Positions 7,840 through 28,432 of a DNA stretch of 44,024 nt are shown piece after piece. The stretch spans positions 1,092,211 to 1,136,234 of the forward strand of contig NZ_LT964761.1 of the NCBI RefSeq assembly GCF_900240275.1, read 5' to 3'. How positions within the stretch are numbered: the first letter of the stretch is position 1; each line of letters begins with the position of its first letter. The notes beneath the pieces were generated by a model. The model ran no database searches, was not told the origin of the DNA, and saw only the letters and a list, made by a program, of their open reading frames with translations. This stretch comes from [Lactobacillus] timonensis. Its GTDB lineage: Bacteria > Bacillota > Bacilli > Lactobacillales > Lactobacillaceae. Both the position numbers and the translations under genes were made by a program.

Positions 7840-8586
7840 ATGACAGAAAAGACAACCTCACAAACTCAACAACTAGTAGCGTCATTGAAGAATAAGCACT
7901 GGGTCGACCTGACCCATACCTTTGGTCCGGATAGCCCCCGTTTTCCGTCATTTAAACCCGCAAAGTTTGACACAATTTTTACCCATGCCGATGGTTTCTT
8001 TGTTAAGGAATATACTTTTCCCGGGCAATATGGAACTCACATCGACCCACCAGTTCACTTTTACAAGGATGATGACCGCTACGTGGAGGATTTACCCCTT
8101 AAAGACCTGGTGCTCCCGTTAGTCGTTATTGACCACCATGAAGCGGCAACTGCTAATCCTGATGCAAGCCTGACGGTCAAGGACATTAAAGTCTGGGAGA
8201 AAAAACACGGGGCTATTCCAGCCGGATCGTTTGTCGCCTTGCGAACCGATTGGAGCAAGCGCTGGCCGTCCCAGGAAAAGTTTGAAAACAAGGATGCTAA
8301 CGGTCAGAACCATTACCCTGGCTGGTCACTCGACGCCCTGAAGTACATTTATGAAACCCGCCATGCCACCGCTAATGGGCATGAAACATTCGATACTGAT
8401 ACCGCGACGGAACAAGGTGACGGGCTGGTTGGTGAATACTACGTTTTGTCACACGGGCACTACCAGGTGGAATTGTTGGATAATCTTGATCAGGTGCCGG
8501 CAACCGGGGCCGTTATTAACATTTCCGTTGCCAAGCCGGAAAAGGCACCCGGTTTTCCGGTCCGCGCATACGCCATTTTTGATTAA
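7840..8586 (+). CDS. cyclase / kynurenine formamidase-like metal hydrolase
   Basis: A 248-residue cyclase-family protein, a fold that includes bacterial kynurenine formamidase and other metal-dependent amide hydrolases. The metal-binding signature GQYGTHIDPPVHF lies at about residues 65-77, and a downstream HGHYQVELLDN region supplies further active-site residues. WVDLTHTFGPDSPRFP near the N-terminus is also typical. I chose the ATG at 7840; a GTG nine nt upstream overlaps the ribosome site. It sits 20 nt after the MetE-like gene and is therefore under the Met T-box. The substrate is unknown; a link to methionine derivatives such as N-acyl or formyl compounds is only inference. Confidence 0.85.
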   Translation: MTEKTTSQTQQLVASLKNKHWVDLTHTFGPDSPRFPSFKPAKFDTIFTHADGFFVKEYTFPGQYGTHIDPPVHFYKDDDRYVEDLPLKDLVLPLVVIDHHEAATANPDASLTVKDIKVWEKKHGAIPAGSFVALRTDWSKRWPSQEKFENKDANGQNHYPGWSLDALKYIYETRHATANGHETFDTDTATEQGDGLVGEYYVLSHGHYQVELLDNLDQVPATGAVINISVAKPEKAPGFPVRAYAIFD

Positions 8587-8628
8587 GAAATAAGAAAATA
8601 CGTCAAGCTGCTAGAGAGAAGGAATAAA

Positions 8629-9955
8629 ATGGAAGAAGTTGAAACAGGAACACTCAAACGGTCCCTTTCTACCCGCGATCTGATTATTTACGGAGTGATT
8701 TTTATGATTCCGGTAGCGCCGGTCGCCTTCTACGGTTCATTTTTGAAGCCGGCGAATGGGATGGTCGCACTGGCTTACTTAGTCGGGATGATTGCAATGC
8801 TTTTTACCGGCTTCAGCTACGCAACGATGAGCCATCGTTATCCGTATTCCGGCTCGGTTTACACCTATGTTCAACAGGGAACCACCCCGGCACTGGGATT
8901 TCTTGGTGGCTGGGGAATTTGCCTGGATTACCTACTGATTCCTACCATTACTTACTTAATCAGTGCTTCATTTGGGCATGAACTGCTTCCGGCGGTGCCG
9001 GTTTGGGCGTGGATTACTTTTATTGCTGTGTTCAACACCATTATTAACCTGTTGGGGGGTCGACTTTGTATCTCGGTTGAGCTGGTTGCTATTCGGCCTT
9101 CAAGCACTGGTCTTAGCAGTCTTTATTTTCTTAACACTCCGTTTGACTCTCCTTGGTCAGGTCCATCCGACGAGCATCGCCTTTTATAACCCGACCCACT
9201 TTAACTTTTCGGGGGTGTTGCAGGCGACGGGCATTGTGATTGTTTCCTACCTGGGCTTTGATGCCATCAGCACGTTGGCAGAAGAGGCAACTGAGCCACG
9301 TCGTTCAGTCGGTCGAGCAATCATCGGTGCGATTGTGGGCATTGGGTCGCTATTTGTGATCACCACCTGGCTGGCCGGCTGGGTAGCACCGAATTACCTC
9401 TCATTAAATCCGGCGACGGCTTTTTCACAAATCATTAACCGGGTTGGGGGACCGGTACTGACGCGATTGACAGACATAGTAGTTGTCTTGTCATTTGGCC
9501 TAGCTGGTGGTCAGGAAGGACAGACGGCAGTGTCCCGCATTCTGTTCGCCATGGGTCGTGATGGGATCTTGCCACGGCAGTTTGCTTACCTTCACAAAAC
9601 TCGCCGCACTCCCTGGGTAGCGATTATCCTGGTTGGTGCTTTGTCATTAATCTTGTCACTAACCCTGACGCAAAATACTGTTTCTAACCTGGTAAGCTTT
9701 GGGGCACTCTTTGGCTTCCTCCTCCTCAACCTTAGTGTTATTTACCGTTTCTATCTGCGGGGAGAGAAGAACTTGTTGACGACGTTGAAGTACCTGTTAT
9801 CACCGCTAATTGGTTTTGCGGTTAGCTTGTGGATCTTCCTGAGTTTAGCCACTTCAGCCAAAATTGTGGGCGGTTTGTGGTTACTAGTTGGGTTCTTAAT
9901 CCTACTGGTAAAGACCAGAGGATTTCGTCAGCCGATACCGCGATTAGAGTTATAA
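8629..9955 (+). pseudogene. APC-family amino acid permease, frameshifted
   Basis: A multi-pass amino acid/polyamine permease split over two frames. The first part reads from the ATG at 8629 (ribosome site GAGAAGGAAT) through YPYSGSVYTYVQQG and GGWGICLDYLL to about 9055. There a run of six Gs (9054-9059) throws the frame; with five Gs the protein continues smoothly as INLLGVDFVSRLSWLLFG and on to the stop at 9955, giving about 441 residues, normal for the family. The second half has AISTLAEEATEPRR, the APC signature. It is the last gene of the Met T-box operon, so methionine or a derivative is a likely substrate. The shift could be real inactivation, slippage at the G tract or a sequencing error. 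Confidence 0.88.
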
Positions 9956-13667: not shown

Positions 13668-15125
13668 ATGCCAATTCAAAACAAAGCAATGCTCATTACC
13701 TACTCTGATTCAATGGGTAAGAATGTTAAGGAAACCCACGAAGTACTGAATAAGTATATTGGGGATGCGATCGGTGGTGTGCACCTGCTACCGTTCTTCC
13801 CGTCAACCGGGGACCGTGGTTTTGCCCCTTACCGTTACGACGTTGTGGATCCTGCTTTTGGGGACTGGTCAGACGTTGAAGCATTAGGTGAAGACTACTA
13901 CCTGATGTTCGACTTCATGATCAACCACATTTCAAAGAAGTCAGAGATGTACCAGGACTTCAAGGCTAAGCACGATGATTCCAAGTACAATGACTTCTTT
14001 ATCCGCTGGGAAAAGTTCTGGGAAAAGGCTGGCGAAGGGCGGCCAACTCAGCATGATATTGATATGATCTACAAGCGGAAGGACAAGGCTCCTGAGCAGG
14101 AAATCGACTTTGCCGACGGAACGACGGAACACCTGTGGAATACTTTTGGCGAAGAGCAGATTGATATTAACGTGAAGAGCAAGGTGGCTAACGAGTTCTT
14201 CAAGGAAACACTGATCGACATGATTAAGCACGGGGCCGACATGATCCGTCTGGACGCCTTTGCTTACGCGGTTAAGAAGGTCGGCACTAACGACTTCTTC
14301 GTTGAACCAGAAATTTGGGACCTGCTGAACAAGGTTCAAGATATCCTGGCACCATACAAGGCAATCATTCTGCCAGAAATTCACGAACACTACACTATTC
14401 CGCAGAAGATCTCGCAACACAACTTCTTTATCTACGACTTCACTTTACCAATGACCACCCTCTACACTCTGTACTCCGGAAAGACCAACCGGTTAGCTAA
14501 GTGGTTGAAGATGAGCCCGATGAAGCAGTTTACCACCCTCGACACCCACGACGGGATTGGGGTAGTGGATGCGAAGGATATTCTGACTGACGACGAAATT
14601 GAGTATGCTTCTAACGAGCTCTACAAGGTCGGGGCCAACGTTAAGCGGAAGTACTCCAGTGCTGAATACAACAACCTGGATATTTACCAGATTAACTCGA
14701 CTTACTATTCAGCTCTGGGTGACAACGACAAGGCTTACTTGCTGGCCCGGGCATTCCAGATCTTTGCTCCTGGTATTCCAATGGTTTACTATGTTGGTTT
14801 ACTAGCCGGAACCAATGACCTGGAGCTGCTGGAAAAGACCAAGGAAGGGCGAAACATCAACCGTCACTACTACAGCAAGGAAGAAGTGTCCGAGGAAGTT
14901 CAACGGCCAGTGGTTAAGAACTTGCTGAATCTGTTGTCGTGGCGTAACAAGTTTGCAGCCTTTGACCTCGACGGTTCCATCAAGGTTGAAACGCCATCTG
15001 AGACGACGATCAAGATCACTCGCCAAGATAAAGATGGCAACAACGTCGCTGTCCTGGACGCTGACGCTGCTAACAAGACCTTCACGATTACCGCTAACGG
15101 TGAAACCGTGATGGAACAAAAGTAA
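13668..15125 (+). CDS. gtfA: sucrose phosphorylase (GH13)
   Basis: A 485-residue cytoplasmic enzyme that splits sucrose with phosphate into glucose-1-phosphate and fructose. Catalytic residues are readable: nucleophile Asp196 in [10 protein letters not shown], acid/base Glu237 in LPEIHEHY and transition-state Asp295 in LDTHDGIG. The N-terminal [19 protein letters not shown] is characteristic of GH13 subfamily 18. The length is typical for sucrose phosphorylases. A GAGGAGG site precedes the ATG. It lies just downstream of the frameshifted MFS gene and was probably co-transcribed with it. Energy is saved because glucose-1-phosphate needs no ATP; the fructose could go to the ROK kinase at 5423. 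Related glucosylglycerate or sucrose-6-phosphate phosphorylase activity is less likely. Confidence 0.93.
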
Positions 15126-18074: not shown

Positions 18075-18140
18075 TACAGAAACAGAAAAAGCGTTGCGAC
18101 ATAATCCCTCTTATTCACACTAAAAGTTAACAGGCGGTAC

Positions 18141-18201
18141 AACAATGGCCTCTAGCGTTCGGGACTACCAGAACGTTAGAGGCCATTGTTGCTCCCTTTT
18201 T
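18141..18201. terminator. 20-bp hairpin between convergent genes
   Basis: Arms 18141-18160 and 18171-18190 pair fully with one wobble and a 10-nt loop. Five Ts follow six nt later (18197-18201). It separates the rightward MFS gene from the leftward sugar-acid operon. Confidence 0.8.
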
Positions 18202-18215
18202 GTCTGTTTAGATAA

Positions 18216-18869
18216 CTAGTGTTCTTGACGAATCCGTGCCAGTTCGTCGTGGAATTGTTGGGCGTTCTTGGTAACTTGCTCGTAGTCCCCCTTGGAACCA
18301 GGGCCGACCAAGCTGCCACCAGCACCACAGCAGAAGGCACCAGCTACCAACCAGTCTTTCAGGTTAGCCAGCGAAACACCACCACTTGGCATGAAGTTGG
18401 CCTGCGGGAATGGACCGTGCAGTTCGTGGATCATCTTGGTGCCAGCAATTGCGCCAGGGAAGATCTTGACGACATCGGAACCACTCATCAGCGCAGTTTG
18501 AACTTCGGTTGGGCTAAAGCAACCTGGCATGTAAGGGATTGCGTACAGGTTGCAAAGCTTGGCGACTTCGGCATTGAATGACGGGCTGACGATGAAGCGG
18601 GCACCAGCGACCATTGCCATCCGGGCAGTAGGACCATCGAGCACGGTCCCGGCACCAACAACGACTTCCGGATCGTCAGCATAGTCTTCTGACAACCGCT
18701 TGATAGTCACGTCGGCATTTGGCGAAGTGAAGGCAAGTTCAATTGCCTTAACACCGCCCTTGATGCTGGCCACAGCGGTTTGATAAGAATTCTCCTCGCT
18801 GGTTCCCCGGACAACGGCCAGGACACCGGCTTCTTGGACAGCCTTTAGGGCTTGAAACTTTTTTAGCAT
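18216..18869 (-). CDS. eda: KDPG/KHG aldolase
   Basis: A 217-residue class I aldolase that cleaves 2-keto-3-deoxy-6-phosphogluconate to pyruvate and glyceraldehyde-3-phosphate. Active-site segments: GVKAIELAF with the general Glu, MPGCFSPTE, the Schiff-base Lys in SDVVKIFPG (about 130-138) and MPSGGVSLAN for phosphate binding. The length is normal. It is the last gene of the leftward operon, 17 nt after the PHI-like gene. The ribosome site GAAGG precedes ATG. With the KDG kinase three genes upstream it completes the lower half of the Entner-Doudoroff-like KDG route. 4-hydroxy-2-oxoglutarate cleavage is a possible side activity. Confidence 0.93.
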   Translation of the reverse strand: MLKKFQALKAVQEAGVLAVVRGTSEENSYQTAVASIKGGVKAIELAFTSPNADVTIKRLSEDYADDPEVVVGAGTVLDGPTARMAMVAGARFIVSPSFNAEVAKLCNLYAIPYMPGCFSPTEVQTALMSGSDVVKIFPGAIAGTKMIHELHGPFPQANFMPSGGVSLANLKDWLVAGAFCCGAGGSLVGPGSKGDYEQVTKNAQQFHDELARIRQEH

Positions 18870-18886
18870 ATTTTAACCTTCTTTGA

Positions 18887-19429
18887 TTATTCCATGTTGC
18901 TGTGAGTGTGCGCAGCAGCAGCATTTGAAGTATGGTCGCGCCGGCTCAGCTTGAGGCATAAAACATCAAGCGTAATGTGAACGGTTTGATCAAAGAGAGT
19001 ACTCAACAACTGGATCGACTTTACTCCGTCACCAGCCTTGGTAGCCCCGGGAACGACAATTGACTTGTCGGCCAGGTTTGCCAACTTGGATTCACTATTA
19101 CTAGTGACACCAATGAGGGTGGCACCGTTATCCTTCGCTTTTTCGGCGAGTTCAACGATGCTTTTGGTGTTACCGGAACCGGAAACGGCGACCAGGACAT
19201 CACCCGCCTGAACTGATGGGGTGATGGTTTCGCCAATGACGTAAGGGGTGTAGCCGATGTGCATCAACCGCATCGCAAATGCGCGGGCCATGAGTCCAGA
19301 ACGGCCGGCACCCAGAACGAAGATCCGTTTATCCTTAGTTAACAGTGGTTCGACGTCGTCCAATTGACTTTCGTCGACAAGGTCCAATACTTTATCAATT
19401 TCTGCTTTTACTTGCTCTACTAATGCCAT
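18887..19429 (-). CDS. hxlB: 6-phospho-3-hexuloisomerase-like SIS protein
   Basis: A 180-residue sugar isomerase (SIS) domain protein resembling PHI, which interconverts D-arabino-3-hexulose-6-phosphate and fructose-6-phosphate. GAGRSGLMARAFAMRL (about 36-51), the GETITPSVQAGD region and VSGSGNTKSIVELAEKA (about 81-97) form the sugar-phosphate site. The start ATG shares one base with the HxlA-like stop codon (TAATG), so the two are translationally coupled; its ribosome site lies inside the upstream gene. The C-terminus ends in an unusual Ala/His-rich tail (SNAAAAHTHSNME). The pairing with the HPS-like gene supports PHI function, but the substrate in this operon may differ. Confidence 0.88.
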   Translation of the reverse strand: MALVEQVKAEIDKVLDLVDESQLDDVEPLLTKDKRIFVLGAGRSGLMARAFAMRLMHIGYTPYVIGETITPSVQAGDVLVAVSGSGNTKSIVELAEKAKDNGATLIGVTSNSESKLANLADKSIVVPGATKAGDGVKSIQLLSTLFDQTVHITLDVLCLKLSRRDHTSNAAAAHTHSNME

Positions 19430-20052
19430 TACTTAATCACCTTCATGAATTTTTGTGCTGCGGAAACAGGGTCGTCACTCTTCATGATTTTACTGCCGAC
19501 GATCACCGTGTCAGCAATTCCTTGCTGACTGAGTTTAGCTGCCTGCTCCAGGTCGATTCCCCCGGCGACGTTAATCCGCTGAACTTGTGGATAGTCAGCA
19601 TGGAACTGAGCAACTGATGCGGCGGCATCAAAGTTAGCACTGCTGTCCTTAGCATGGTGAATGCCATAGATAGCGTGGTCAAAGCCTAGTAATTGCTGTG
19701 TCTTTTCCTTATTAACTTCCATCAAATCAATGAACATTTGCCGGTGAGCCTTTTCGGCAACTTGGTAGCAGGTGGTTAGGGTGCCGATAGCACTCGCACC
19801 CATTACCGTCAGAATGTCAGCGCCAATGGCAAAACCCTGTTCAAACTCGTATTTTCCTTCGTCAATCGTTTTGGTATCAAGGAGTAGTTCAGCATGGTGG
19901 ATGCCTAACTGATCTTTCTGCAGGGCATAGCACCCGTAATCTTTTACTAGGGACGTCCCCATTTCGATGATATCAACAATTGGGTCGAGCTTGGACGCAA
20001 TTTCTTTGGCGTAATCCAGGCTAACCCGGTCGATGGCGACTTGCAGCTTCAT
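19429..20052 (-). CDS. hxlA: 3-hexulose-6-phosphate synthase / KGPDC-like protein
   Basis: A 207-residue TIM-barrel protein of the orotidine-5-phosphate decarboxylase suprafamily. Asp8, Glu30 (DIIEMGTSL) and the Asp59-Thr-Lys61-x-x-Asp64 motif are present, and phosphate-binding NVAGGID and VIVGSKI segments end the barrel. HPS condenses formaldehyde with ribulose-5-phosphate; the KGPDC branch (UlaD) decarboxylates 3-keto-gulonate-6-phosphate. The discriminating region reads IHHAKD (131-136), with Lys135 where I recall Arg in UlaD and Thr in HPS, so neither assignment is secure. It overlaps both neighbours by one base (KDG kinase upstream, PHI downstream), showing tight coupling. Confidence 0.82.
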   Translation of the reverse strand: MKLQVAIDRVSLDYAKEIASKLDPIVDIIEMGTSLVKDYGCYALQKDQLGIHHAELLLDTKTIDEGKYEFEQGFAIGADILTVMGASAIGTLTTCYQVAEKAHRQMFIDLMEVNKEKTQQLLGFDHAIYGIHHAKDSSANFDAAASVAQFHADYPQVQRINVAGGIDLEQAAKLSQQGIADTVIVGSKIMKSDDPVSAAQKFMKVIK

Positions 20053-21017
20053 TATTCTTCGGTAACCCCCTGTTCAGTGTAGAACTTCTTCAGACCATCA
20101 GGTGTTGGGTAGCCGTCGTTGTCGCCAGGCGTTTGAATTTGCAGTGCGCCAACGGCGTTACCACGCATAACGGCTGTCTTCATGTTCTTGCCTTCGAGCA
20201 GGGCAGTAATAACCCCGAGGGCGAACCCGTCACCGGCACCAACAGTGTCGACGATGTCCTTTTGGTCAACGTGGAAGCCGGCAACAGTGTACTTGTCGCC
20301 ATCAGCCGTCTTGACGAAGGCACCCTTAGAACCAATCTTAACGATAACGGTCTTGGTGCGTTCACCCTTCAAGTAGAAGTCGGCAATTTCTTCAGGATCA
20401 TCAGACCCCATCAGAATCTTACCTTCTTCGACCCCTGGCATAACGATGTCAGCGTAACCTGCTAATTCGTTTTCGGTCTTAACCATGTAGTCATGACTCT
20501 TCCAGGTGTCACGCAGGTTCGGGTCATAAGTGGTCAGGATGTTGTTGTCGTTCAGACGCTTGAAGAGGGTCCGGAAAGTTTCTTCGGCGGTGTCGGAAAT
20601 GCTTGGGAAAATCCCAGACATGTGGGCAATCTTAACGTCGGAGAGGTCAACCTTGTTGATGATGTCCTTAGTCAGGAAGCAGGCTGCAGAGTTCTTCCGG
20701 TAGTTGAAGACTTGTGGGTCACCCTTGGTTACCCGTTGCTTAATTTGGTGACCAGTCCAGTGGTCAGGGTCGTAAGAAACGTATTCCGTGCCGACCTTGT
20801 GGCTGGCAATGGTCTTCTTAACGAACTCACCAAATGGGTCTTCACCAACCCGGGAAATGTATTGAACGGTGTGGCCGAGGCGTTTAACACCGATAGCAAC
20901 GTTTAGTTCAGCGCCACCCATGATTTTGTGCCATTCAAGGGCGTCTGCTAATGAAACGTCTGGTTCTTCAGAACAAAAAGTGACTAATGGTTCACCGATT
21001 GTAATAACTTCACTCAT
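20052..21017 (-). CDS. kdgK: 2-keto-3-deoxygluconate kinase, PfkB family
   Basis: A 321-residue ribokinase/PfkB kinase. Near the N-terminus GGAELNVAIGVKRLG forms the sugar-binding region; FNYRKNSAACFL resembles the Tyr-Arg-Lys-x-Ser-Ala-Ala stretch of KDG kinases; the signature DTVGAGDGFALGV with the catalytic Asp is near residues 257-269. ATP-dependent phosphorylation of KDG to KDPG fits the KDPG aldolase encoded in the same operon. AAGGTAGG precedes the ATG. It lies 17 nt after the transporter gene and overlaps the HPS-like gene by one base. Other PfkB substrates (fructose, 5-keto sugars) are possible, but the context favours KDG. Confidence 0.88.
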   Translation of the reverse strand: MSEVITIGEPLVTFCSEEPDVSLADALEWHKIMGGAELNVAIGVKRLGHTVQYISRVGEDPFGEFVKKTIASHKVGTEYVSYDPDHWTGHQIKQRVTKGDPQVFNYRKNSAACFLTKDIINKVDLSDVKIAHMSGIFPSISDTAEETFRTLFKRLNDNNILTTYDPNLRDTWKSHDYMVKTENELAGYADIVMPGVEEGKILMGSDDPEEIADFYLKGERTKTVIVKIGSKGAFVKTADGDKYTVAGFHVDQKDIVDTVGAGDGFALGVITALLEGKNMKTAVMRGNAVGALQIQTPGDNDGYPTPDGLKKFYTEQGVTEE

Positions 21018-21034
21018 GATATATTCCTACCTTT

Positions 21035-22324
21035 CTAACCAAAGAAGTGGTAAACAAGTAATTCGTTGATGATACATACGATCCACATTACTGGAACCCC
21101 GAGCTTTAAGAAGTCCTTGGATTCAACCTTCATGTAATCAAGACCCCAAACGTTCCATGATTGGGTAATGTCAGTGGAAATCGCAAACAATGTTGCGGTG
21201 TACATCAATGGCAGCATGAAGACGTCACTGAAGAGCCCGGTACCAGCCAATACGGCGGCAGTTGCGGCACCGGCACCCCAAACCTGCAACGGTCCACGGA
21301 AGAGGGCTAATGGTGAGAGAATCCCGAATGCTAAACACAGTACCAGGGTATTGTGGGGAAGGATTGCAGAAATAATTGGCCGGAACTTAGCAGCGTCAAT
21401 TGAAGCAGCGCCGCTGAAGAATGTCAGGGCCATCAAGAACATTACCAAACCGGCAATATCACTAATCGCCTGGGAAATGGTATCGTTCATGAACTTAACC
21501 ATGTGCTTGTAGTTCTTAAACTGGCCCGTCAGCAGCATGGCAACGATCACACCGAAGACCAGTGCAGGAACAGCGTCCCACTTGAAGAGCATGTTCATCG
21601 CAACCGGGATGATCGGCACAATGTAGGTAATTGGCGAAACCTTTTTAATCTCGTCAGCATTGTCGTTGGCACCAATGATTGCCAGATTCTTTTCGGCGTT
21701 TGCCGGGTTAATCTTCTTGCGGTGGAAGAAAAGAAAGAGTAAAACGATGACCATTTGGACAACCATCGCGCAGACACCAAACTGCAGGTACTTCCCACCG
21801 TAGATTGACTTCGGGAAAAAGGCTTTCATTTGGTTGTACAAAACAACGTTGATGTACATTGGCGCACCAATGGAAAGAGCAAACAGTGACAAGGCGAGGT
21901 CCCGTGGCATCCCGATTGAAAGCAGGATTGGCAACAGGATAACCCCGATGGCAATAACGGAACCGACACCGTAAGCACTAACGAAGATCAGGCAGGTAAC
22001 AAGGGCAACTAAGACAGCTGCCAGCAGCGGCTTTTTCTTGCCGACCTTGTTAGTTGCGGCAGAAATCCCTGGGGCGATCCCACTGTCAACCAGAACCCGG
22101 CCAAACCAGGAACCGAAAGCAATGTAGATAATCGTTGGCCCGTACTTAAGTGCTGGTTCAGCGAAAACCTTTTGAATGGCGACGTTGAATGGTACCAGGC
22201 CGATAACCGACCAGAGAATCGCCATGATGAAGAAACCAATCATCAGGTTACCGCCCTTGATGATGTAAAAAATAAAGGCAATAAAGGTAATTAATAGTAG
22301 TATTGCAATAATTGTTGACGACAA
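21035..22324 (-). CDS. GntP/CitM-type sugar-acid transporter
   Basis: A 429-residue integral membrane protein with about 11-12 hydrophobic helices, resembling the ion-transporter superfamily that includes GntP gluconate:H+ symporters and citrate-Mg carriers. Features are SAYGVGSVIAIGVILLPIL (central glycine-rich helix) and a matching second-half region with LSPLALFRGPLQVWGAGAAT. A cytoplasmic loop (FHRKKINPANAEKN) splits the protein into halves. It starts with TTG five nt after AAGGTGAG, a start codon that may keep expression low. Its place between the isomerase and the KDG kinase suggests it imports the operon's substrate, probably an aldonate, a uronate or KDG itself. Confidence 0.85.
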   Translation of the reverse strand: MSSTIIAILLLITFIAFIFYIIKGGNLMIGFFIMAILWSVIGLVPFNVAIQKVFAEPALKYGPTIIYIAFGSWFGRVLVDSGIAPGISAATNKVGKKKPLLAAVLVALVTCLIFVSAYGVGSVIAIGVILLPILLSIGMPRDLALSLFALSIGAPMYINVVLYNQMKAFFPKSIYGGKYLQFGVCAMVVQMVIVLLFLFFHRKKINPANAEKNLAIIGANDNADEIKKVSPITYIVPIIPVAMNMLFKWDAVPALVFGVIVAMLLTGQFKNYKHMVKFMNDTISQAISDIAGLVMFLMALTFFSGAASIDAAKFRPIISAILPHNTLVLCLAFGILSPLALFRGPLQVWGAGAATAAVLAGTGLFSDVFMLPLMYTATLFAISTDITQSWNVWGLDYMKVESKDFLKLGVPVMWIVCIINELLVYHFFG

Positions 22325-22359
22325 TTTAACTCACCTTACTTTAACTAATTTAAAATTGT

Positions 22360-23109
22360 TTAATTCTGTGCGTCATTGAACAGCTTAATTTGTGAAGCGA
22401 TCAATTCGTCGTTGTCCATTGGGAATTCAAGGGCAAATTGAACATCCTTTGGCAAATAGCTGACAATGATTTGCCAGTTAAACATTCCCTTGCTTAAATC
22501 AGCAGTGGTGGTCATATTACCTTCAGCATCCAGCATCGAGTTCTTTAAGTGAATGTAGTCACAGAATGGTGCCAGCTTCTTAGCAGCTTCAACAGCGTCA
22601 AAGCCAGTAAATGCCCAGTTACCCAGGTCATAAACGTAACCAATGCTGTTTAAGCCGGCCTCACGAGCGGCTTCCAGGAAGGTGTAAATGGCATCAGGCG
22701 TACCAGAAACAGGAGTCTGGTCATTTTCAACGTTCATCTTGATTGCAGCCAGTGGGAACTTAGCAAAGTCAGCGGCCAGGTTGCCACGGTAGTTGTCGAA
22801 GTGACCAGTGTTGAACTTGATCTTGCTGATGCCCATCTTCTGGCCTTCTTCAAAGTACTGGCCCAGCTTTGGGTTGATGGAACCATCATCTTCAAAGACC
22901 ACGTCAGGAACACTGTAGTTGACGATCAGGTGGTCGGCAGCGGCAGCTTTAGCGACACCGTCCAGTTCGCTATCAAAGTTCTTGAAGTATTCACGACGTA
23001 CTTCGATCCCGTCAGCACCAAGCTTCCTAACCCGGTCAACCAAGTCAACTTGACTAGTACCGTTTTGAACGTCTTTTTCAAAAATCCAGGTATTTAAAAT
23101 CAAAGTCAT
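22360..23109 (-). CDS. xylose isomerase-like TIM-barrel sugar isomerase/epimerase
   Basis: A 249-residue protein of the AP-endonuclease-2/xylose-isomerase-like TIM-barrel family. DGIEVRREYF (about 33-42), IKMNVENDQT (likely metal-binding Glu), YVYDLGNWAF and FALEFPMDND near the end are typical metal and substrate-binding strands (E, D, H, E pattern; IHLKNS supplies the His). Such enzymes epimerise or isomerise sugars, sugar acids or their phosphates. GGAGAGAC precedes the ATG ending at 23109. It is second in the leftward operon, so it probably converts the imported acid to a form used by the kinase. The exact reaction is unknown. Confidence 0.85.
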   Translation of the reverse strand: MTLILNTWIFEKDVQNGTSQVDLVDRVRKLGADGIEVRREYFKNFDSELDGVAKAAAADHLIVNYSVPDVVFEDDGSINPKLGQYFEEGQKMGISKIKFNTGHFDNYRGNLAADFAKFPLAAIKMNVENDQTPVSGTPDAIYTFLEAAREAGLNSIGYVYDLGNWAFTGFDAVEAAKKLAPFCDYIHLKNSMLDAEGNMTTTADLSKGMFNWQIIVSYLPKDVQFALEFPMDNDELIASQIKLFNDAQN

Positions 23110-23122
23110 AATTTGTCTCTCC

Positions 23123-23380
23123 TTAATACTTATTGAGTTCCTTAACCCGTTCGAGCAGTTCTTCAAAGGTCATGTCTTCAAACTTCTTGGCGTCAGCCTT
23201 GCCGAAGTTCTGCCGTTCAATCGAATTAAAGTCTTCGACGAGGTAGTAAGCGGTCAGGTAGCCCATCAAAAACTTCTTTGCTTCATGGACTAGCTGATCG
23301 TTCTTCATCCCCTCCGCGACAGCCGTTTGGGCAAAGCGCAGGGCAAACTTCTGTGGGTCAATCAACGTCCGATCATTCAT
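23123..23380 (-). CDS. small protein, first gene of sugar-acid operon
   Basis: An 85-residue soluble, mostly helical protein (KFALRFAQTAVAEGMKNDQL, then MTFEELLERVKELNKY) with no recognised domain and no membrane segment. GGAGGGG precedes the ATG. It is the promoter-proximal gene, 13 nt before the isomerase gene, with a perfect cre box 18 bp before its start codon. A subunit, regulator or stabiliser for the pathway is possible, but nothing in the sequence proves a function. Confidence 0.75.
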   Translation of the reverse strand: MNDRTLIDPQKFALRFAQTAVAEGMKNDQLVHEAKKFLMGYLTAYYLVEDFNSIERQNFGKADAKKFEDMTFEELLERVKELNKY

Positions 23381-23416: not shown

Positions 23417-23438
23417 GTAGTGTAACCTGTTAACCAAA
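23417..23438. promoter_or_regulatory. LacI-family operator A
   Basis: Contains GTAACCTGTTAACCAAA. Read leftwards it is TTTGGTTAACAGGTTAC, closely matching the left arm of operator B. A probable site for the divergent regulator at 23631. Confidence 0.65.
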
Positions 23439-23517: not shown

Positions 23518-23539
23518 TTTGGTTAACCTGTTACCCAAA
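23518..23539. promoter_or_regulatory. LacI-family operator B
   Basis: TTTGGTTAAC, two bases, GTTACCCAAA: arms of 10 bp with one mismatch. It is about 100 bp from operator A, and the two flank the divergent promoter region, so looping or autoregulation is likely. AT-rich -10 candidates (TATAAT, TATACT) lie between them on both strands. Confidence 0.75.
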
Positions 23540-23630: not shown

Positions 23631-24632
23631 GTGCAAATAATGAAAAAGAAAAAAAGGCCGACCATCCGCGACGTGGCGGCATTAGCCGGCGTATCGGTAG
23701 CAACAGTTTCGCGCTACCTTAACGGCAAAACCAATAAGATGACGACCGCAACGGCGGCCAAAATTAAAGAAGCGATTGCCAAACTACAGTACATTCCTAA
23801 CCCGGCAGCCCGGGAAATGTCACACAATAAAAGCATGATTGTGGTGATCGTGGTGGCTAACGTCGCCGACTACTTCTCCACTGAGATCTTCAAGGGTGCT
23901 TCTCGCAAACTGGAAGCCGCGGGTTACGTCCCGGTATTGCTCGATTCCGGGGCGGACCAGTCCCACGAAAAGCGCATTTTAAATTCAGTTAATATCCACG
24001 GGTTCGACGGGCTCTTGTTTCAGCCGCTAACCAGTGATACTGCTTTGATCCAAAGCGAGCTGACCCGTCATTTTCCGGTTGTGATCCTTGACCGGGAACT
24101 CAAGCGGTCACCATGGCCACAAGTCGTCACTGATAATTACCAGGCGGCCAGCAACGCTACTCAGCATTTTGTCGATGAAGGGTTCAAACACGTGGTGGTT
24201 CTTTCTTCAACCATTAAGCAGGCATCAACTCGTCAGGAACGCTATCAGGGAATCGTTGACAGTGCAAACGATGTTAGTGTCGTGGAAATTGACGAAAACC
24301 ACTTTGACCGTGAGCAGGTTTATCATCAGTTGGTCAGCTTGCTGAAACAGAAGCAAAAGACCATGCTATTTAGTCTCAAGGAACGGTGGCTGCTAGAATT
24401 CTTGCCGCGACTAATGCAAGATGGCCTGATTAACCAGGAAAGTACCAGGGTGACAGGTTTTGCTGATACTAGCTTAATTAAGGCAATTTGCCCATATGCC
24501 CAGGTCATTTCACAAAATCCTTCCTATATGGGAGAACGGGCAGCAGAAGTGCTCCTCAAGATGTTGAAAGGCGAAAGCCGCGAAATCGATGATATCGTGA
24601 TTAAAGCAACGTTTGCAGATAATAAACAGTAA
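23631..24632 (+). CDS. LacI/GalR-family regulator of the sugar-acid operon
   Basis: A 333-residue repressor. The helix-turn-helix and hinge are at the N-terminus: PTIRDVAALAGVSVATVSRY (about 9-28), then the minor-groove hinge YIPNPAAREM. The ligand-binding periplasmic-protein-like domain follows, with DGLLFQP and VVTDNY segments. The GTG at 23631 lies nine nt after GGAG; an ATG three codons later is further from it. It is transcribed divergently from the KDG-type operon, and two matching palindromes lie between them, so it very likely controls that operon and itself. The inducer is unknown, possibly KDG or its phosphate. The KdgR group of LacI regulators is the closest functional analogy. Confidence 0.92.
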   Translation: MQIMKKKKRPTIRDVAALAGVSVATVSRYLNGKTNKMTTATAAKIKEAIAKLQYIPNPAAREMSHNKSMIVVIVVANVADYFSTEIFKGASRKLEAAGYVPVLLDSGADQSHEKRILNSVNIHGFDGLLFQPLTSDTALIQSELTRHFPVVILDRELKRSPWPQVVTDNYQAASNATQHFVDEGFKHVVVLSSTIKQASTRQERYQGIVDSANDVSVVEIDENHFDREQVYHQLVSLLKQKQKTMLFSLKERWLLEFLPRLMQDGLINQESTRVTGFADTSLIKAICPYAQVISQNPSYMGERAAEVLLKMLKGESREIDDIVIKATFADNKQ

Positions 24633-27031: not shown

Positions 27032-28432
27032 TTAACGTAGTTGAAAATGGTCATCAAGCCCGGCTAAGAAGGCTGCGTAATCTTTTTTGACTTGCTGGGC
27101 ATAGTGCGCTGCCCAATCAGCAATGGCTAAATCAACCTTCTTTTGGCCCTTTAGGTAACCGCGAATCATTGGCGCAGTCGGGCTTTGAAAATGCGCTTTA
27201 GCTAGGAGAAAACTACAGATTTCTGAGTAAAGAGCAAAACCTTCCCAATCTAACTTACCGACATCAATCGATTCCTTCATGTCCCGAAACTGACGAACAT
27301 AGTAAGAACGGTGACCAAAATGGGTGCTACCGAGGAAGGGATCGGATGCCGACTGTAGAACTTTTTGTGCAGTGACAATTCGGTTGCCGGCGTTAACTGA
27401 ACGACGGATGACATCGTCGACCGTCAACTGTAACAGGTTATAACGTAGCGGCAGCGATTCCTTCATTTGTAAGACGAGGTGGGAACCATCGTTGCCGGCA
27501 AGCAAGAGCAGGTAACAACGAGTACCAAAACTACCAACCCCGACGCTATAACGGATGATGTCAATAATCGTGTAGTTGGCAAGCAACACCTTCACGTCGG
27601 CCGGCAAGTGGTTGCGATACTCGTAAAAACCGTTGACAATTGCGGTGTAAGTGTTTTCGTCAACGTGTTTAGCCCGGGGAACGTTATCAATAAAACGACG
27701 GCGACCATTCTTCTCCTTGACGGTTTTCTTTTCAACGATGGTTTCAGAATTCGACTTAGAACTTTTGACCACAATCTTCTGAAGAATGTGGGCCAGATGT
27801 GACGATTCGGTAAGGTGGTCGGCTTCGTGCAGCTGTTCCATCATGTCGTGGATTTCGTAACTAGAATAAAAGCGACTAGTTAACGACTGGTGGTAGGAGT
27901 ATTTGATGGCTTTGCGGTAAACTTTCACCACCCGACGGCACAAATCGTGGAGACTGTCGGCTGAGAAATTATTTTCACTACCTGCTAGCAGGACGCTAAC
28001 TAGTAGTCGCTTGAGATCTGATTCCCAGTTGCCAATCCGTGCTTCGTCAAAATCATTAAGGTCGAACAGTAACTTTCTCTCTGGTGAAGCGTAAAAACCA
28101 TAGTTGTTGAGGTGGGCATCACCACAAATGATGATGGGGATCATACTCTGGTTTTGCTTCTTTAAATCGTCTTCCATCAAGTCGGCGGTTCCCCGATAAA
28201 AGGCAAAGAGGCTGGCGGACATACGCTGGTGACGTAGTGGTAGTAGTTCCGAGATCATGTTGGCCTCGGTCATTTTAATAAGTTCGACAGGATCGCGATC
28301 CACGGGAACGTAATCTCCAAGAAGCAGGGGACTCACCAGATGACACTGGTGCTCGCCCTGTTGTTTCAACTCCTTTTTCGATCGGCGGATGGTAACCTGG
28401 CTGAGCTTGAAAATATCAAGATGACGATTCAT
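27032..28432 (-). CDS. DUF2252 family kinase-like protein
   Basis: A 466-residue cytoplasmic protein of the DUF2252 family. CGDAHLNNYGFYASPERKLL and the following FDLNDFDEA (about 102-130) resemble the catalytic HxN and Asp motifs of aminoglycoside-phosphotransferase/HipA-like kinases. The N-terminal KLSQVTIRRSKKELKQQG is basic. The middle (DNVPRAKHVD) and C-terminal LAKAHFQSP segments are also family-typical. The ATG ending at 28432 follows AAAGGA at nine nt. No substrate is known for the family. It is divergent from the pyruvate dehydrogenase operon. Confidence 0.88.
   Translation of the reverse strand: MNRHLDIFKLSQVTIRRSKKELKQQGEHQCHLVSPLLLGDYVPVDRDPVELIKMTEANMISELLPLRHQRMSASLFAFYRGTADLMEDDLKKQNQSMIPIIICGDAHLNNYGFYASPERKLLFDLNDFDEARIGNWESDLKRLLVSVLLAGSENNFSADSLHDLCRRVVKVYRKAIKYSYHQSLTSRFYSSYEIHDMMEQLHEADHLTESSHLAHILQKIVVKSSKSNSETIVEKKTVKEKNGRRRFIDNVPRAKHVDENTYTAIVNGFYEYRNHLPADVKVLLANYTIIDIIRYSVGVGSFGTRCYLLLLAGNDGSHLVLQMKESLPLRYNLLQLTVDDVIRRSVNAGNRIVTAQKVLQSASDPFLGSTHFGHRSYYVRQFRDMKESIDVGKLDWEGFALYSEICSFLLAKAHFQSPTAPMIRGYLKGQKKVDLAIADWAAHYAQQVKKDYAAFLAGLDDHFQLR

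Follow-up and report, generated by a model that had tools for sequence, protein, structure and literature searches.

The operon at positions 18216–23380 of the window, a stretch of 44,024 nucleotides from [Lactobacillus] timonensis (contig NZ_LT964761.1), is probably a variant of the 2-ketogluconate (kgu) operon that leads to pentulose phosphate without a redox cofactor. This estimate concerns the pathway as a whole and is drawn from homology and gene order. In place of the reductase KguD, the operon carries proteins resembling hexulose-6-phosphate synthase (HPS) and 6-phospho-3-hexuloisomerase (PHI). Known parts are combined here in a new arrangement which most likely adds two new reactions to the kgu pathway. 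We regard a wider claim as an even bet: a side line of the HPS and PHI families, widespread and in part carried on plasmids, would have abandoned formaldehyde chemistry and would form a redox-free 2-ketoaldonate-6-phosphate isomerase/decarboxylase pair (2-ketogluconate to D-ribulose-5-phosphate), the same decarboxylase, where recruited next to an ascorbate-type phosphotransferase system (PTS) and a lactonase resembling UlaG, would serve a D-isoascorbate (erythorbate) pathway, and the annotation of the clade as formaldehyde enzymes would be wrong.

Protein families of the operon

Seven open reading frames (ORFs), all on the minus strand, were confirmed (Table 1). In transcription order, they encode an 85-aa protein, a TIM barrel, a permease, a PfkB kinase, an HPS-like protein, a PHI-like protein, and a KDPG/KHG aldolase (Eda), with intergenic gaps of 13, 35, 17, −1, −1, and 17 nt. 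This agrees with the first-pass annotation, which had listed seven leftward genes with 1-nt overlaps and gaps of 13–35 nt. It had also described the functions as fused in one unit, which holds for the operon and not for the proteins.

KguE-like protein: The TIM barrel matches AP_endonuc_2 weakly (23 bits, cut-off 31). Its sole significant solved relative is PA2260 (PDB 1yx1, E 4e-21), which we take to be the KguE of Pseudomonas, and it shares 31% identity with the product annotated as Epimerase KguE in a ptxS-kguE-kguK-transporter-kguD locus of Klebsiella. KguE-family TIM barrels adjoin 2-ketogluconate, 2-keto-3-deoxygluconate (KDG), and sialic acid pathways (loci L043, L045, L216, L242, and L253), and such neighbours would fit a 2-ulosonic acid anomerase acting ahead of a kinase or lyase.

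KguK-like protein: The kinase belongs to PfkB (PF00294, 176 bits) and is 43% identical to the 2-ketogluconate kinase of the same Klebsiella kgu locus. Its best solved relative is 4du5, named PfkB (197 bits), followed by the KDG kinase 1v19 (114 bits). The operon therefore holds the pair by which we recognize a kgu operon, one protein of KguE type and one of KguK type, and this pair is conserved. Knockouts of kguE, kguK, kguT, and kguD in Pseudomonas plecoglossicida are reported to delay or block the use of 2-ketogluconate, and the reaction of KguE is described there as unknown (PMC11678583).

Permease: This protein of 429 aa matches CitMHS (PF03600) weakly, with an E value of 0.004. As no GntP model matched, its earlier assignment as a GntP-type transporter was rejected. 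The major facilitator superfamily transporter KguT is not in the window operon.

HPS, PHI, and aldolase: The HPS-like protein belongs to OMPDC/HUMPS (PF00215). Its best NCBIfam model is HxlA (TIGR03128, 152 bits), under the equivalog cut-off of 200, and the UlaD equivalog is not reached (63 bits, cut-off 294). The PHI-like protein matches SIS/PHI (TIGR03127), and the aldolase matches KDPG/KHG (PF01081, 149 bits). Profile searches of the window ORFs placed no KguD-type reductase among the seven genes. The unit has no dehydratase or uronate isomerase either, as had been noted at first pass.

Conservation across genomes

The window HPS was used to search 396 Lactobacillaceae genomes (E ≤ 1e-25, the family set) and matched in 57, its own genome counted. 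Around the 56 other HPS loci, we found KguK in 50, PHI and LacI in 49 each, KguE and the permease in 48 each, and the aldolase in 15. The misses of KguE, KguK, and PHI are six PTS-linked loci and the contig-end loci L067 and L096. A named set of 80 loci (the best 80 of 117 relatives) overlaps the family set in species, and hence the two are not additive. KguK and PHI are present in 80/80 named loci, KguE in 79, the permease in 76, and the small protein in 54, and a LacI homologue lies within 7 kb in 77. KguE is missing in L136 alone, a locus which starts near a contig end. The aldolase occurs in 40 named loci, in 38 of them within 5.5 kb. It was not seen in the other 40, one of which is cut just 3' of PHI, and is not present in the three closest cassettes. 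Levilactobacillus brevis ATCC 14869 (L132) is one carrier in which Eda was not seen. Because of these counts, we take KguE-KguK-HPS-PHI as the conserved core and the aldolase as an addition to it.

A search for this gene order in Lactobacillaceae, suggested by the first-pass annotation, found KguE-permease-KguK-HPS-PHI there and also in Enterococcaceae and further groups, so the arrangement is not due to chance. Carriers include Limosilactobacillus, Levilactobacillus, Lentilactobacillus, Weissella, Oenococcus, Enterococcus, Vagococcus, Staphylococcus gallinarum, and Sporolactobacillus. Plasmid copies, with insertion sequences close by, are found in Loigolactobacillus coryniformis, Lacticaseibacillus paracasei, and Tetragenococcus halophilus (pHDC).

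Some loci depart from the common form. L208 is a decayed cassette with a stop in KguE, in which KguK and PHI are kept and HPS was not matched. In four Lactobacillus loci (L177, L178, L185, and L194), one from L. kullabergensis and three uncultured, KguE is relocated 3' of the aldolase. In Enterococcus hulanensis (L162) and E. malodoratus (L171), an ula operon with UlaG, UlaE, and UlaF is located about 1 kb downstream of the cassette.

Exchange of HPS/PHI with KguD

KguE was found in 105 of the 396 family genomes at E ≤ 1e-20. Outside HPS cassettes, we examined 47 KguE places, namely 45 of the 46 with at least 140 bits and the weaker L219 and L222. The 46th (G377 C19), which probably completes a cassette split by a contig end, and 32 weaker places were left out. 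More than half of the places (25/47) are KguE-permease-KguK operons with a KguD-like D-2-hydroxyacid dehydrogenase (287–700 bits) and without HPS/PHI. KguD is next on the same strand in 23 of these and lies on the opposite strand beside KguK in L212 and L223. The remaining 22 comprise seven with KguE, permease, and KguD without the KguK-like kinase, three with KguE, kinase, and aldolase, and 12 that are mixed or cut. Conversely, KguD of 287–700-bit strength is present in 0/48 family HPS cassettes having KguE and KguK. The HPS/PHI and KguD modules replace each other, and they do so per operon, not per genome.

In a kinase tree of 47 rows (hand-picked, as are the 52 rows of the HPS tree), KguD-linked and HPS-linked kinases interleave, with 12 lactic acid bacterial KguD rows in three places. 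The window kinase clusters with those from KguD operons. Given this interleaving and the alternation of the modules, the simplest reading is that both would act on one kinase product, named 2-keto-6-phosphogluconate by homology.

The first-pass annotation had read the kinase and aldolase as a KDG kinase and Eda, a pair which is not supported as the core of the operon. In a rival reading, these two would carry the main flow from KDG to pyruvate and glyceraldehyde-3-phosphate, with HPS and PHI as accessories. Eda does occur in the window and in half of the named loci, and KguE, kinase, and Eda stand together in KDG-type clusters (L216 by hidden Markov models, L242 and L253 by eye). The KguK of Cupriavidus necator is reported to phosphorylate KDG with a kcat/KM of 7370, compared with 16770 for 2-ketogluconate and 246 for 2-keto-D-gulonate (PMC6651773). 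Against this route stands the patchy occurrence of Eda (40/80 named loci, 15/56 family HPS loci, 0/3 closest cassettes). The Edd/IlvD, UxuA, and KduI families gave 0 matches in the host (galactonate dehydratases were not searched), with control matches in 14/14, 5/14, and 6/14 genomes, respectively. Moreover, of nine kinases that have an aldolase partner but neither HPS/PHI nor KguD, eight are placed outside the group of cassette kinases. The ninth is L216, where KduD (455, cut-off 369) and KduI (397, cut-off 250) pass their models and KdgT (344) is under its cut-off of 454. We consider KDG as the main flow unlikely. In the preferred 2-ketogluconate route, the aldolase would probably serve KDG in a side branch. 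A characterized KguK also phosphorylates this compound, which leaves the two-branch split raised at first pass as a possibility where Eda is present, as in the window.

Residues and phylogeny of HPS and PHI

The following residue counts omit L095, L096, and L100 (interrupted or cut), and the PHI set also omits L053.

HPS: The cassette proteins form a clade with 100/100 support apart from HxlA and UlaD. R9, S34, K37, and E65 are invariant in 52 cassette and five PTS-linked HPSs. The equivalents of R9, S34, and E65 are found in 0/7 HxlA and 0/3 UlaD, and that of K37 in 2/7 HxlA and 0/3 UlaD. The core residues D8, E30, D59, K61, D64, and H132 are common to cassette HPS and HxlA. Asp109 and Ala163 are as in HxlA, and UlaD has Glu and Thr at these positions.

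PHI: D147, S143, and H151 are invariant differences of the cassette proteins from HxlB. The Glu of the LFE motif in HxlB (7/7), presumably catalytic, is replaced by Asp in 51/51 cassette PHIs.

These features bear on a reading in which both proteins are true enzymes of the ribulose monophosphate pathway, fixing or releasing formaldehyde for detoxification or for making pentose from fructose-6-phosphate, and have come to lie in this operon for different reasons. It draws on the PHI score above the TIGR03127 equivalog cut-off (204 vs. 160 bits), on the best solved relatives and the nearest folds of both predicted models, which are HPS and PHI, and on Asp109 and Ala163. The HPS score under the HxlA cut-off, the separate clade, and the invariant differences from HxlA and HxlB speak against it, as do the neighbours: KguK adjoins HPS in every named locus, the genes around seven comparison hxlAB pairs are unlike those of the cassette, and HPS relatives linked to PTS and UlaG occur without PHI. 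Formaldehyde chemistry is hence an improbable role for the cassette pair.

Clues to substrate and product

Sporolactobacillus: S. terrae (L184) and S. inulinus (L191) carry LacI-KguE-KguK-HPS-PHI-transaldolase-transketolase-KguT-aldolase. In L184, KguT shows 65% identity with the transporter of Klebsiella across 422 aa, and transaldolase (362, cut-off 282) and transketolase (918, cut-off 682) pass their models. In L191, the latter two were assigned by look-alike sequence alone. The sequence of L192, from S. shoreicorticis, stops 57 bases 3' of PHI and is uninformative for downstream genes. These operons appear to bracket the HPS/PHI step, as the kgu transporter suggests 2-ketogluconate as the input and the other genes pentose phosphate as the output.

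PTS/UlaG branch: The six family HPS loci that lack the cassette had been regarded as possibly unrelated. This was rejected, as they form one group, in which five intact HPS homologues and one interrupted homologue, all without PHI, lie 3' of an ascorbate-type PTS IIC and a UlaG-like lactonase. The HPSs are 40–46% identical to the window HPS, and the five intact ones (L097, L098, L099, L101, and L102, with HPS at about 8000–8850) nest within the cassette clade. The lactonase reaches 546–568 bits (cut-off 306) in the four loci tested. UlaE and UlaF matched in none of the six loci and were found in the classical ula loci L103–L105. In L098, 6-phosphogluconate dehydrogenase is directly 3' of HPS, and in L102, RpiA (286 bits) and transketolase are in an adjoining cluster on the opposite strand. 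Because this HPS occupies the position of UlaD, it is expected to decarboxylate a 3-keto-hexonate-6-phosphate. Its likely product is a D-pentulose phosphate, since UlaE and UlaF were not found, and stereochemistry points to D-isoascorbate (erythorbate) as the likely substrate.

The cassette might also run the same decarboxylating route on another 2-keto-hexonate, for example 2-ketogulonate or an epimer set by KguE, and yield another pentulose-5-phosphate. KguE is named an epimerase, the C. necator kinase weakly accepts 2-keto-D-gulonate (246 vs. 16770, PMC6651773), and two carrier species are reported as acid-negative on 2-ketogluconate (see below). KguT in the Sporolactobacillus version and the KguD-type sister operons argue against it, and we rate it slightly below the two alternatives above.

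Proposed pathway

From gene content, conservation, module exchange, and clade-specific residues, we infer the substrate and every reaction as follows. 2-Keto-D-gluconate would be imported by the permease. KguE would act on the free acid, possibly interconverting cyclic forms, and KguK would make 2-keto-6-phosphogluconate. The PHI-like protein would turn this 2-keto acid into its 3-keto isomer by a C2/C3 ketone shift like that of PHI on fructose-6-phosphate. The HPS-like protein would cleave C1–C2 of the resulting beta-keto acid to give CO2, not formaldehyde, and D-ribulose-5-phosphate, which would pass to phosphoketolase. The last two proteins would stand in for KguD and 6-phosphogluconate dehydrogenase, with an equal net result and without NAD(P)H turnover. 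This is close to a suggestion of the first-pass annotation, that HPS/PHI handle a non-standard keto sugar phosphate and supply pentulose-5-phosphate to phosphoketolase. Phosphoketolase and 6-phosphogluconate dehydrogenase are both present in the host genome (1.68 Mb, 99.99% complete).

If correct, the pathway adds two activities, a 2-keto/3-keto-6-phosphogluconate isomerase and a 3-keto-6-phosphogluconate decarboxylase. Enterococci and the lactic acid bacteria of food and gut would have a route that needs no cofactor and can replace KguD and 6-phosphogluconate dehydrogenase. An annotation under which these organisms seem to assimilate formaldehyde would be corrected, and reaction change among HPS, KGPDC, and PHI could be studied in a natural test. 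The pathway may also matter for what becomes of 2-ketogluconate in foods, and the UlaG-linked branch for what becomes of the additive erythorbate. Among the open-access papers searched, we found none treating 2-ketogluconate together with 6-phospho-3-hexuloisomerase. The available text of one study lists hxlA, hxlB, and kguK together among predicted nodule genes, without a pathway proposal (PMC10017544), and HPS and KDG kinase are listed as annotations for sourdough bacteria (PMC9472446).

Evidence weighing against the proposed pathway

Several observations count against the 2-ketogluconate reading. The PHI score and the nearest folds given above are those of formaldehyde enzymes. A conserved basic carboxylate binder at the position of KGPDC Arg139 (here 135) was considered and rejected, as K, R, or H is found in 31/62 sequences only (K 19, H 11, R 1). 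The named set, being the best 80 of 117 relatives, favours close ones. The exchange with KguD is not entirely clean: weaker D-2-hydroxyacid dehydrogenases (71–156 bits) occur in 11 HPS loci (six family and five named, mostly the same places), and one with 83–89 bits to lactobacillus KguD is directly 3' of PHI in L082 and in L092/L187 (Pediococcus argentinicus), possibly as an extra step or a chance neighbour. The host itself has a KguD-like reductase, 55% identical to that of L209, about 140 kb from the operon. Its cluster (L259, C1:964500-979000) contains the KguD-like gene, LacI, a short-chain dehydrogenase/reductase, and a permease alike at the N-terminus, and KguE and a kinase were not seen among the genes listed for it. 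This second cluster may be an additional, reductive keto-gluconate route. Counting the host, 14/50 genomes of the genus have such a reductase at E ≤ 1e-70.

Phenotype reports point in the same direction. The genome of Lacticaseibacillus zeae subsp. zeae DSM 20178, which we take to be the type strain, has the cassette (L189). A published API test gives no acid from 2-ketogluconate for this subspecies, and an API result reported for Tetragenococcus halophilus is likewise negative in the strains tested, whose pHDC status is unstated in the available text. Limosilactobacillus species without acid from 2-ketogluconate are also reported, with cassette status unstated there (PMC8346765), and the available parts of PMC4362408 and PMC8744253 contain nothing decisive for phenotype matching. 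A weak API signal is conceivable because, by our own balance, the route yields one H+ per 2-ketogluconate and glucose yields two.

Genomic setting

Two copies of the palindrome TAACNNGTTA lie between the LacI gene and the operon (Table 1), and a third is at 27431, so that the window holds 3 matches where 0.52 are expected. The three nearest named relatives (L117–L119) have 2, 3, and 3 copies 5' of the cassette, respectively. Since the motif is upstream in just 9/80 named loci, we regard it as a guess at a local operator. The 85-aa protein is encoded by the first gene of the operon. A family search with it matched no family, and its homologues also adjoin some KguD-type operons. The hairpin 3' of the operon has its T run on the plus strand side and may mainly serve the plus strand gene. 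Further away (13668–15125), a 485-aa ORF resembles what we take to be the sucrose phosphorylase family.

Table 1 Features of the operon and its surroundings (positions in the window)
Feature	Position	Strand	Basis
Terminator-like strong hairpin 3' of operon	18130..18210	none	RNA fold −40.7 kcal/mol, z −8.1
KDPG/KHG aldolase, optional accessory gene	18216..18869	−	PF01081; 40/80 named, 15/56 family HPS loci
PHI-like SIS protein, predicted 2-keto/3-keto-6-phosphogluconate isomerase	18887..19429	−	
HPS/KGPDC-like protein, predicted 3-keto-6-phospho-D-gluconate decarboxylase	19429..20052	−	
KguK-like PfkB kinase, predicted 2-ketogluconate 6-kinase	20052..21017	−	PF00294; 80/80 named loci
CitMHS-like permease, predicted 2-ketogluconate importer	21035..22324	−	PF03600, E 0.004; 76/80 named loci, 25 KguD-type operons
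KguE-like TIM-barrel protein	22360..23109	−	PDB 1yx1 match; identity to Klebsiella KguE; 79/80 named loci
Small protein, 85 aa	23123..23380	−	ORF; >30-bit homologue in 54/80 named loci
Putative LacI operator TAACNNGTTA, copy 1	23423..23432	none	Palindrome between LacI gene and operon; guess
Putative LacI operator TAACNNGTTA, copy 2	23524..23533	none	Palindrome between LacI gene and operon; guess
LacI-family regulator, divergent	23640..24632	+	Pfam LacI and Peripla_BP; substrate sensing predicted

Comparison with known systems

kgu operon: The kgu operons of Pseudomonas and Klebsiella (ptxS, kguE-kguK-kguT-kguD) likewise unite KguE, KguK, a transporter, and a LacI-type regulator in one locus (PMC11678583). 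The window has a LacI-family regulator, which may respond to 2-ketogluconate as PtxS does. In contrast to these operons, the window has HPS-like and PHI-like proteins for KguD, a permease of another family, an added small protein, and the optional Eda.

KguD operons of Lactobacillaceae: L209, L213, and L218 agree with the window in the families and order of KguE, permease, and kinase, but have a D-2-hydroxyacid dehydrogenase where the window has HPS-PHI.

ula: The L-ascorbate system uses UlaD, a 3-keto-L-gulonate-6-phosphate decarboxylase, which is likewise of the OMPDC suprafamily and decarboxylates a 3-keto-hexonate-6-phosphate, as predicted here for the cassette. The cassette HPS differs in its probable D-series product, the lack of UlaE and UlaF, Asp109 and Ala163 in place of the Glu and Thr of UlaD, and its separate clade.

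HxlA/HxlB: The pair of the ribulose monophosphate pathway has the folds, the six core residues listed above, and the C2/C3 ketone shift in common with the cassette proteins. However, the cassette pair is predicted to release CO2 instead of formaldehyde and is set apart by the invariant R9, S34, and E65 in HPS and D147, S143, and H151 in PHI.

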